The notes under the pieces: model-generated | The model's database searches: none | What the model saw: only the letters and a program-made list of their open reading frames with translations | Told to the model about the DNA's origin: nothing | Assembly: GCA_008373095.1 (NCBI GenBank) | Contig: RQOP01000089.1 | Location: 1-47,236, forward strand | DNA from: SAR202 cluster bacterium | GTDB taxonomy: Bacteria; Chloroflexota; Dehalococcoidia; Lucifugimonadales; UBA826 | DNA length: 47,236 bases | Direction of reading: 5' to 3' | Program-made: the position numbers and the translations under genes | Part shown: piece by piece, positions 1 to 2,547 of the stretch | Layout of the letters: each line of letters begins with the position of its first letter | Numbering within the stretch: position 1 is the first letter of the stretch

Positions 1-17
1 AACGGTTTCTCTGCCAT
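1..17 (-). CDS. Start of a leftward gene cut by the window edge
   Basis: Only the first five codons are inside the window, reading Met-Ala-Glu-Lys-Pro on the minus strand from an ATG at 15-17. What supports a real gene is a perfect AAGGAG ribosome binding site at 24-29, six bases from the ATG, and the divergent arrangement with the peroxiredoxin gene across a 197-base spacer. Nothing can be said about the product. Confidence 0.55.
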
Positions 18-154
18 TTAAATCTCCTTAAAGAATCAAACATAGCGATTGCTGTCATGTTTGAATTTAACTGCCATGTAGTGGTTTTACGTAGGAACGA
101 CACTATACTTTGTTCCCTTGATCTATTCAATAGGTCGATTTTACCTATGCTTTA

Positions 155-183
155 TTGACAGTGTTTTTAGTGAGAGATAGACT
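155..183 (+). promoter_or_regulatory. Sigma-70-type promoter for the peroxiredoxin gene
   Basis: A perfect TTGACA at 155-160 is followed after 17 bases by TAGACT at 178-183 (4 of 6 match to TATAAT). It lies 31 bases ahead of the peroxiredoxin ATG at 215, which also has a strong ribosome binding site (AAGGAGA, 204-210). The promoter is predicted from sequence only. Confidence 0.55.
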
Positions 184-214
184 TTCAAATCATTCACTCG
201 AGTAAGGAGAATAT

Positions 215-685
215 ATGTCAGCAGAAGTAGGACAATCAGCCCCAGAATTAACAGCGATTAATAATGAGCGACAACCTGTGACTCTAGCGGACCTTAAAGG
301 CAAAACAACTGTATTGGTGTTTTTCCCGGGCGCATTTACAGGCGGTTGCCAAGAAGAAGCATGTACATTTAGAGATGCTCTTGCCGAATATAATGATCTC
401 GGTGCTCAAGTCTATGGAGTAAGCGTGGATTCGTTTTTTGCCCAAGACGCTTTTATTGGGGCTAATGATTTGAATTTCCCTTTTTTGAGTGATTATTCTA
501 GGAAAACTATTGAAGACTATGGTATAGCGGTAAATGATTTTGCGGGTATGCCAGGTTACACAACTTCGACGAGAGCTGTTTTTGTTATAGATTCTGAAGG
601 GACATTGCGATATAAAGTCGCAGTTGCACCAACTGAACAACCAGATTTCGATGAAATCAAAAATGCTGTTAGCCAAATCAAATAA
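215..685 (+). CDS. Peroxiredoxin, AhpE/BCP-like
   Basis: This is a 156-residue thiol peroxidase of the AhpC/TSA superfamily, expected to reduce hydrogen peroxide and organic hydroperoxides in the cytoplasm. The peroxidatic motif PGAFTGGC ends at Cys45. A second cysteine lies at Cys50, the same five-residue spacing as the Cys45/Cys50 pair of E. coli BCP, so an atypical two-cysteine cycle with an internal disulfide is plausible. Length is normal for the AhpE/BCP group and there is no signal peptide. The ATG has a strong AAGGAGA site and its own promoter, and a good hairpin terminator follows at 788-823, so it is probably a monocistronic transcript. The next gene on the same strand is a thioredoxin-like candidate selenoprotein, a possible reductant partner; that pairing is inference. 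Confidence 0.93.
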   Translation: MSAEVGQSAPELTAINNERQPVTLADLKGKTTVLVFFPGAFTGGCQEEACTFRDALAEYNDLGAQVYGVSVDSFFAQDAFIGANDLNFPFLSDYSRKTIEDYGIAVNDFAGMPGYTTSTRAVFVIDSEGTLRYKVAVAPTEQPDFDEIKNAVSQIK

Positions 686-787
686 TATGTGTGGAAAACA
701 AAGTGGTTCTGGTGCCAAAGATGATAGTATGATTTGATGGGTGGGGGAGCGATATACTATCCGTCTAGACACAATGTTCAGTCGATG

Positions 788-823
788 AAAAGGCGATATC
801 TCTTACAAGGATTCGCCTTTTTT
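788..823 (+). terminator. Rho-independent terminator after the peroxiredoxin gene
   Basis: A nine-base perfect stem, AAAAGGCGA (788-796) with TCGCCTTTT (813-821), encloses a 16-base loop and the 3' arm runs into a T tract ending at 823. It lies about 100 bases after the peroxiredoxin stop codon and separates that gene from the thioredoxin-like gene. Confidence 0.7.
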
Positions 824-915
824 CCGTCCCAGTGAGTATGAACTTTTGTTCAATTATTTAAATCTACATTCCCTATTTATTAGTTTCAGGTGTTGTTTTT
901 GCGGTATCCTTTTTC

Positions 916-1332
916 TTGGTCTACCGTACCTTTTCTTTAAAGGCTGCTTTACTTTCTGCCTTAATCCTTTTGGTTGCAGTAGCCTTATTGCGCAGTCCAC
1001 TCACAACATCTTCCGACGAATTGAGTACTATTGAGGATTGGAATTTGATACAGAATTCTGGAAATCCGGTGGTGTTGTATTTATATTCTGATCTTTGAAT
1101 TGGTTGTTTATCTATGAAACCTGCCGTTGACAGGTTAGAAAAACGATTAGGTCAAAAATTGACCTTTGTAAGATCGGATGTTCAAACCGAAATTGGGAAA
1201 CTTTTGTATGCAGAATACGAGGCAAATTTAGTACCAACCTTCATAGTTTTTGATCAGTATGGTGATACAAAATATCGAACAAACGGGGTGCCTGAATATT
1301 CTTTCATCAATTCGCTACTGTTTGAGGATTGA
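916..1332 (+). CDS. Membrane-anchored thioredoxin-like protein, candidate selenoprotein (UxxC)
   Basis: Two open stretches, 916-1095 and 1099-1332, lie in the same frame and are separated only by one TGA at 1096-1098. Read through, they give one 138-residue protein: a hydrophobic anchor (about residues 8-26), then a thioredoxin fold. The TGA falls exactly at the first redox cysteine: U61-I-G-C64, followed by Pro69 five residues after Cys64 (as Pro40 in thioredoxin) and a VPT cis-proline motif with Pro107. The true stop is another TGA at 1330-1332, so TGA is normally a stop here; selenocysteine is the simplest reading. A SECIS-like hairpin follows at 1118-1136. The start is uncertain: 916 is a TTG with no clear ribosome site, and the frame stays open and hydrophobic back to 862, so a second N-terminal membrane segment (perhaps from the ATT at 868) is possible. 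The alternative is a pseudogene with a nonsense mutation. Confidence 0.75.
1118..1136 (+). promoter_or_regulatory. Candidate bacterial SECIS element
   Basis: A perfect six-base stem, AACCTG (1118-1123) with CAGGTT (1131-1136), encloses the loop CCGTTGA. If C1125 pairs with G1129 the apical loop is GUU, with a G first. That G (1126) is 28 bases after the last base of the in-frame TGA, inside the roughly 16-37 base window described for bacterial SECIS elements, which require a G among the first loop bases. The element lies within the coding sequence, as bacterial SECIS elements do. Confidence 0.55.
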
Positions 1333-2547
1333 TCAGCCTAGGGTAGTTTTTTTCGTGTTAATAATAGTAGATCCAAATGAAAGTACGACACATAAACCAG
1401 ACAGAAAGATTAGCCCTGGTGTAAATCCACTAAAAAGATCCGCGGATACCCCTAATAGTATAGGACCCATTACACCTCCTACTTCTCCGGCGGTAAAATA
1501 CAGTCCGCCTGCAGCACCTGTTTTTTCGCTGCCCACCAAAGATATCAAGGTAAGCATTATTATTGGCATGACTCCCCTAGAGGAAATTCCGAGTAGTATT
1601 AATGTTCCCACAAGTAGGGAATTCTCAAAATAAATTAAGCAAATCGTACATGCTGCTGCGACAGAGAATAAAGAAAACATAATCGCCTTGTGCGACTGTG
1701 GCTTTGCTATCTGGGGGATAATTACTGATCCGATTGCACCGGTAGCAACTGGAATAGCGGCTAGTAAACCTGCCTTTGATGAACCCATGTCTTTTTCAAT
1801 TAAAATTTCAGGCAGCCAGTTATTGGTGGCGTGATTGAATAAAAACATTCCCAGTACGATTATGAGAATCAATCTCACCTCTCTGATTCGTACTAGGTCA
1901 GGAAATGTTTTCATACTCGACAAAAGGTCTTTCTTTTCGCCTGCTTCAGAGTTGCTTGTTTTTAGATCTCTAGCGATCAGAATCCATATCACTGAAGTTG
2001 CAAAGGCAACTCCGGACAGAGTCAGTAGAGCTAACCGCCAACTATTGTTAAACAATGGCATTAGTAAACTATTGGTAGCGGATAGGACCAGGATCCTGCC
2101 TATAGCGGGGGCAGTCAGATAAATTCCCATCGCGCGGCCTCGATCAGATTCAGAAAACCATGTACTGATTAATTTTGGGGCACCAATAGAAATGAATGGT
2201 CCCCCTATCCCAAACACCATTACAGCAAAAAGTATGGTTTTATAATCGACTGCTACAGCCCTTAGCAATCCCGACAGGCCAATAAACAATATTCCGGCCA
2301 TAATTGTGAATTTGAGACTAAACCTATCTAATAAAGCACCAGCTGGTATTGCCGTCAAAATATAAATTAACGGCCAAGCACCCAGAACGGTACCCATTGT
2401 GGAGCGATTTAGCCCAAGGTCCTCACTAACTGGACCTATTAAAGGAGGGATACCGCCTTGTACAACTCCAAATGAGAAGTAGGCTAACCAAACCCCGGCC
2501 AGCATCACCCATCTATATCGGATATTAGTTTGTGAACATTCTCTCAT
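1333..2547 (-). CDS. MFS transporter, CynX/NimT-like
   Basis: This 404-residue major facilitator has about twelve hydrophobic segments. The loop after TM2 carries a variant of the MFS signature (GALLDRFSLK), and the N-terminal half resembles the CynX/NimT and anion:proton symporter groups. The substrate cannot be read from sequence. I chose the ATG at 2545-2547; a TTG two codons upstream (2551-2553) is possible and neither has a strong ribosome site. It is convergent with the thioredoxin-like gene: the two TGA stops abut and form the palindrome TGATCA at 1330-1335. It is divergent from the hydroxyacid dehydrogenase at 2714. Confidence 0.88.
   Translation of the reverse strand: MRECSQTNIRYRWVMLAGVWLAYFSFGVVQGGIPPLIGPVSEDLGLNRSTMGTVLGAWPLIYILTAIPAGALLDRFSLKFTIMAGILFIGLSGLLRAVAVDYKTILFAVMVFGIGGPFISIGAPKLISTWFSESDRGRAMGIYLTAPAIGRILVLSATNSLLMPLFNNSWRLALLTLSGVAFATSVIWILIARDLKTSNSEAGEKKDLLSSMKTFPDLVRIREVRLILIIVLGMFLFNHATNNWLPEILIEKDMGSSKAGLLAAIPVATGAIGSVIIPQIAKPQSHKAIMFSLFSVAAACTICLIYFENSLLVGTLILLGISSRGVMPIIMLTLISLVGSEKTGAAGGLYFTAGEVGGVMGPILLGVSADLFSGFTPGLIFLSGLCVVLSFGSTIINTKKTTLG

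Follow-up and report, generated by a model that had tools for sequence, protein, structure and literature searches.

A candidate thioredoxin-family selenoprotein with predicted membrane helices in marine Chloroflexota

We analyzed a 47,236-nucleotide stretch of DNA (referred to as the window here), contig RQOP01000089.1 of a SAR202 cluster bacterium, and found that a gene on its forward strand almost certainly encodes a selenoprotein of the thioredoxin family, as judged from sequence. The evidence comprises a conserved in-frame UGA, a covarying SECIS hairpin, the selenocysteine (Sec) machinery of the same genome, membership in the thioredoxin family, and the interchange of Sec and Cys among homologues. 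According to homology, the gene extends from 846 to 1332. Between 862 and 1332, its frame is interrupted only by the TGA at 1096 to 1098, and reading through this codon as Sec gives ...LYLYSDL-U-IGC-LSMKPAVDRLE...VPTFIVFD..., up to a different TGA at 1330 to 1332 that is used as the stop (some relatives end in TAG or TAA instead). The first-pass annotation, which covered 916 to 1332, correctly described this part as a single frame if its one internal TGA is a residue, placed that TGA at the first redox position of the thioredoxin motif (U61-I-G-C64), and recognized Pro69 and the cis-Pro107 of the fold (VP107T). The codon of the resolving Cys of the UxxC motif (1105 to 1107) is invariant in alignments A2 and A6, as is that of the cis-proline in VPTF (1234 to 1236) in alignment A6. 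With Cys put at the TGA, the protein matches the Pfam thioredoxin model PF00085 at 29.2 bits (gathering score, 23.5), 25/25 family members match the same model at an E value of ≤0.001, and a PDB profile search with the family ranks thioredoxins first (best E value, 3.7e-11). Thus, the score above the gathering cutoff, the CxxC-type motif, and the invariant cis-Pro place the protein in the thioredoxin family.

The 5′ end of the window copy has several peculiarities. The TTG at 916, proposed earlier as the start codon, is not the start of the family, given that homology reaches an ATG in the relatives that aligns to the TTG at 846. An extra C at ∼871 to 873 (TTCCC at ∼869 to 873 versus TTCC or TTCT in relatives), which restricts the open part of the UGA frame to positions from 862 onward, is either a consensus error or a real lesion. 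The conserved motif NQYS reads NLHS in the window, unlike in all relatives. Further upstream, positions 1 to 185 correspond to the relatives' intergenic region (99% to G011), while 186 to ∼840 is an insert relative to all genus relatives. This insert contains a peroxiredoxin gene (215 to 685; AhpC/TSA, PF00578) upstream of the Sec-thioredoxin gene and replaces a gene for a Cys-rich protein of 63 amino acids that the remaining sampled genomes of genera g1, g3, g4, and g6 have at this place. The 63-amino-acid protein has eight Cys residues (MAKYSCGDCGMEV...GCGKIKSPMCCGHDMAAA) and is nearly invariant, and its gene immediately precedes that of the selenoprotein in most family genomes (L011 to L021); the protein has no Pfam match over the cutoff. 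A search for a suspected tRNA gene in the conserved stretch from 78 to 183 found none; this stretch, which has a divergent NHL-repeat gene on one side and the next gene on the other, looks like a promoter region.

These features suggest that the window copy may be misassembled or damaged, with its extra 5′ base and changed NQYS motif. An unlikely reading, but one that deserves some weight, is that the family is real while this copy either was damaged by a 5′ frameshift after the upstream gene was replaced or has its start at TTG 916 and thereby lacks membrane helix 1. It would account for the TTCCC and NLHS variants and fits the fact that the segment from 186 to ∼840 does not belong to this locus in the genus, but the remainder of the gene is intact, being 96% identical to L009 with two changes downstream of the UGA, and a one-base consensus error is plausible near the end of a contig from a metagenome-assembled genome (MAG).

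A terminator-like hairpin (GGGTCGC...GCGACCC-T) is located ∼15 to 30 nucleotides before the start codon (L011 to L017). So close to the start codon, it leaves little room for a promoter, and attenuation is possible. The presence of this hairpin in the window's genus could also be taken to mean that the UGA is mainly a regulated stop, yielding a short peptide with the two helices under selenium scarcity and the full protein under ample supply, an option inherent to any Sec-encoding UGA. We consider this very improbable, given that there is no sign of function for the short product and that Cys orthologues retain the whole protein.

The reading of the UGA as Sec is supported by its conservation. 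Homologues are present in 15 of the 16 genomes of the window's family, at identities down to 33%, and each contains exactly one internal stop, always TGA and always at the U of UxxC (15/15). The closest named relative, L009 (Chloroflexi bacterium isolate RS820, a MAG from the Tara Red Sea samples), shares 96% identity and retains the TGA, which backs the earlier assignment of the host to Chloroflexota. Random stops or frameshifts elsewhere in the gene, which the first-pass annotation had named as evidence against a selenoprotein, were not seen in close relatives, which show the same TGA alone. The search for homologues at the TGA column that it had also proposed retrieved both UGA forms and Cys orthologues (L104, L106, L113, L114, L116, L117, L127, and others). 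Across the class, UGA forms were found in 16 of 393 genomes, together with Cys orthologues at the same column, and a phylum-wide search yielded many further UGA forms as well as some Cys forms; in a phylum sample of 59 genes, this column holds UGA in 46 and Cys in 13. Hence, as expected for a bacterial selenoprotein, the in-frame UGA occupies a column that holds Cys in homologues. Where computable, dN/dS was ∼0.07 to 0.33 after the UGA versus 0.11 to 0.24 before it, suggesting that purifying selection persists past the UGA at a level comparable to that in the upstream part. In a MAG assembly whose window copy has one extra 5′ base, one might suspect that the stop arose by chance in a regular Cys thioredoxin, through pseudogenization or sequencing error, but the likelihood of this is negligible: it is refuted by the conservation of the TGA in 15/15 family homologues, at identities as low as 33%, and in the majority of phylum genes, and both the constraint after the stop and the covariation of the SECIS speak against it.

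A bacterial SECIS apical stem-loop, overlooked in the first-pass annotation, was found at 1118 to 1136 on the forward strand by RNA folding and covariation and by its absence from Cys orthologues. At the apex of the stem AACCUG/CAGGUU, a C-G pair (1125 and 1129) can close the triloop GUU (1126 to 1128), and the stem is part of a longer helix (1100 to 1150). The hairpin lies ∼20 nucleotides past the UGA, and the triloop starts 27 nucleotides after it; counting the UGA as position 1, positions 24 to 30 pair with 34 to 40 around a G-U-N triloop. Its folding energy is −14.4 kcal/mol (z score, −2.89), with the minimum-energy fold leaving the apical C-G pair open, resulting in a loop of 7 nucleotides. 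Published rules for bacterial SECIS elements specify an apical loop of 3 to 9 nucleotides, a G within the first two nucleotides of this loop, a spacing of 16 to 37 nucleotides, a minimum free energy of at most −7.5, and a C-G-U-N-G apical pattern (PMC13188914). The window hairpin agrees with this model, including the apical pattern.

The stem is also supported by compensatory changes. Among 30 UGA genes, 83.8% of the SECIS cells were paired, and covariation was 0.408, compared to 0.181 in shuffled alignments and ≤0.133 in slid ones. Both sides had changed in 35 SECIS cells of these genes, for example to U-A instead of C-G at positions 25 and 39 (L020) and to A-U instead of G-C at positions 28 and 36 (genus g2). 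As an independent set, we used 19 UGA genes from outside the class that had played no part in building the SECIS model (R1). R1 matched the UGA site of these 19 genes with E values from 6e-6 to 6e-14, their covariation was 0.222 versus 0.108, and the pair at positions 28 and 36 was A-U in 10 genes and G-C in 9. An Rfam scan of window positions 1 to 1500 gave no match. On the window's own genome, R1 matched solely the window site; since the model is dominated by the codons of the Sec-thioredoxin gene, it does not reveal other selenoproteins.

In seven Cys orthologues, the stem was not found, with 40.8% of cells paired, no better than in shuffled sequences. When presence of the core SECIS stem was defined as at least three of four pairs, 45/46 Sec genes had it versus 2/13 Cys genes in the sample of 59, the sole Sec row without a good stem being L115. 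In comparisons of independent pairs, stem and Sec coincided in a mean of 5.2 out of 7 pairs, and no pair went the opposite way; the median sign test P value was 0.06, limited by the number of such pairs. The maximum-likelihood tree requires at least seven Sec/Cys changes on well-supported branches, and these many natural switches make the gain and loss of SECIS elements traceable at the nucleotide level. Some individual copies stand out. Tandem UGA copies, two each, occur at L107 and L108 (genomes G399 and G162). The homologue at L172:1735-1785 reads UGAS (UxxS rather than UxxC) and keeps its SECIS. The copy with the poor stem, L115 (G204), is a UGA gene nested among Cys genes; its genome, which consists of one contig, also encodes a Cys paralogue. 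This copy could represent a recent Cys-to-Sec change, a decaying gene, or an error.

The window's genome (104 contigs, ∼94% complete) contains the whole set of genes that the first-pass annotation had suggested looking for. selA and selB are encoded on contigs C46 and C51, respectively, tRNA-Sec (anticodon TCA) is located at C39:13100-13193 (ARAGORN; Rfam RF01852, 65.5 bits), and selD on contig C91 (L068, G000:C91:32173-33096) has an in-frame UGA in CAGUASK and is thus of the Sec type. The same set is found in most family members, with several of the gaps falling in less complete genomes. Among class genomes, selA is present in 15 of the 16 with a UGA form versus 255 of all 393 (P = 0.008 by Fisher's test, uncorrected for relatedness), the sole exception, G044, being 71% complete. 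A perfect sorting of the Sec form with the presence of selA was rejected, as many Cys-only genomes keep selA. An ordinary Cys thioredoxin gene (L001; G000:C39:13100-13555) is followed directly downstream by tRNA-Sec, and a thioredoxin-like match lies beside tRNA-Sec in G015 as well (G015:C2:115225-115667). A reassignment in which UGA encodes a residue other than Sec (compare codes 4 and 25) has nothing in its favor beyond the open frame and is extremely improbable; the first-pass annotation had already considered it unlikely from the terminal TGA stop. In the window's genus, the gene uses TGA as its own stop codon, tRNA-Sec with anticodon TCA, selA, selB, and selD are present, the alternative residue at the column is Cys, and there is a SECIS.

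Hydropathy and a structural model predict two transmembrane helices (∼868 to 918 and 937 to 987, forward strand) with the basic loop RTFSLK between them. Hydropathy peaks of ∼2 or more and K/R in the interhelix loop were found in 25 family members. In the relatives, the protein begins with M-x-x-x-(I/L)-N-Q-Y-S and continues with two hydrophobic segments that flank a short basic loop; a linker then leads to the thioredoxin domain. Hardly any member carries a basic residue ahead of helix 1, and the loop contains one to four K/R residues. The AlphaFold model of L009, built on two sequences and of low confidence (pLDDT, 56.6), contains helices H2-28 and H31-49. Given the K/R residues in the loop, the positive-inside rule places the loop in the cytoplasm and the thioredoxin domain outside, so that the Sec-thioredoxin probably faces outward from the membrane. 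Membrane-tethered thioredoxin domains that face away from the cytoplasm are known from the TxlA/HCF164-type and DsbD-gamma proteins, and we take cd02950 to be the membrane-anchored TxlA group. The window family resembles these proteins in its membrane-tethered thioredoxin, and the PDB profile search also retrieved the DsbD C-terminal domain. However, they have Cys instead of Sec and a different membrane part, and the window family lacks a transmembrane electron carrier within its own polypeptide.

On this basis, the gene would encode a small selenoprotein in which two N-terminal membrane helices anchor a thioredoxin domain to the outer face of the cytoplasmic membrane and Sec replaces the nucleophilic Cys (UxxC). 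SelB with Sec-tRNA-Sec would recognize the hairpin after the UGA, with its apical CGUNG loop, and insert Sec. The selenolate would then attack a disulfide or another oxidized sulfur or selenium group, after which a selenenylsulfide would form with the resolving Cys, to be re-reduced by some donor. Most likely, the selenolate would thus serve to reduce disulfides or related oxidized groups outside the membrane.

Selenoproteins of the UxxC thioredoxin-like type have long been known (PMC1088965, PMC2398784, PMC9312934, PMC13188914), and those of marine bacteria are already catalogued, in line with the earlier remark (PMC2398784, PMC13188914). The proposal of a candidate selenoprotein stands, based on machinery, conserved UGA, and SECIS, whereas calling it notable was somewhat overstated, since its kind has been catalogued. 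The recurrence of gene and SECIS across the phylum points to a genuine selenoprotein of a kind with precedent. Somewhat short of even confidence, we suggest a phylum-wide Chloroflexota family, uncatalogued as such, of membrane-tethered, outward-facing Sec-thioredoxins with repeated Sec/Cys switching tied to SECIS gain and loss, whose partner would be the conserved Cys-rich, zinc-ribbon-like 63-amino-acid protein encoded just upstream in most of the window's family. A literature search on selenoproteins in SAR202 found no paper. It is very probable that, besides SelD, this lineage of marine Chloroflexota produces further selenoproteins, and the selenium need of uncultured ocean Chloroflexota becomes testable via one defined protein. 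Automatic annotation, which ends at UGA, is expected to truncate or miss these genes.

Among catalogued proteins, the Sec-containing thioredoxin (Trx; PF00085, UxxC) in Table 1 of PMC13188914 shares the thioredoxin domain, Sec in first place, the resolving Cys at +3, and a bacterial SECIS after the UGA, but the window family differs from it by its two N-terminal membrane helices. These hydrophobic helices also separate the window protein from the classical cytosolic thioredoxin TIGR01068, whose model it matches at 31.2 bits versus a curated cutoff of 96.8. “Trx-like 3” from the GOS data (weak cd02950, UxxC, 212 sequences, marine-enriched) is similar according to its table description in being UxxC, remotely thioredoxin-like, and marine, and that description mentions neither membrane helices nor Chloroflexi (PMC2398784); going by this description rather than by sequences, it may be the same family. 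NCBIfam release 20 contains no model that names the window family, and the window protein matched none of SaoT (NF040730), HUIPC (NF047660), GOS_C (NF045500), and TsoB (NF045694), only generic thioredoxin-type models. TsoB (rhodanese/DsbD fusion-like) weakly matched the thioredoxin part of 5/25 family members; by its name and PMC13188914, it is a fusion protein with two Sec residues, whereas the window-family proteins are single-domain proteins of 160 amino acids.
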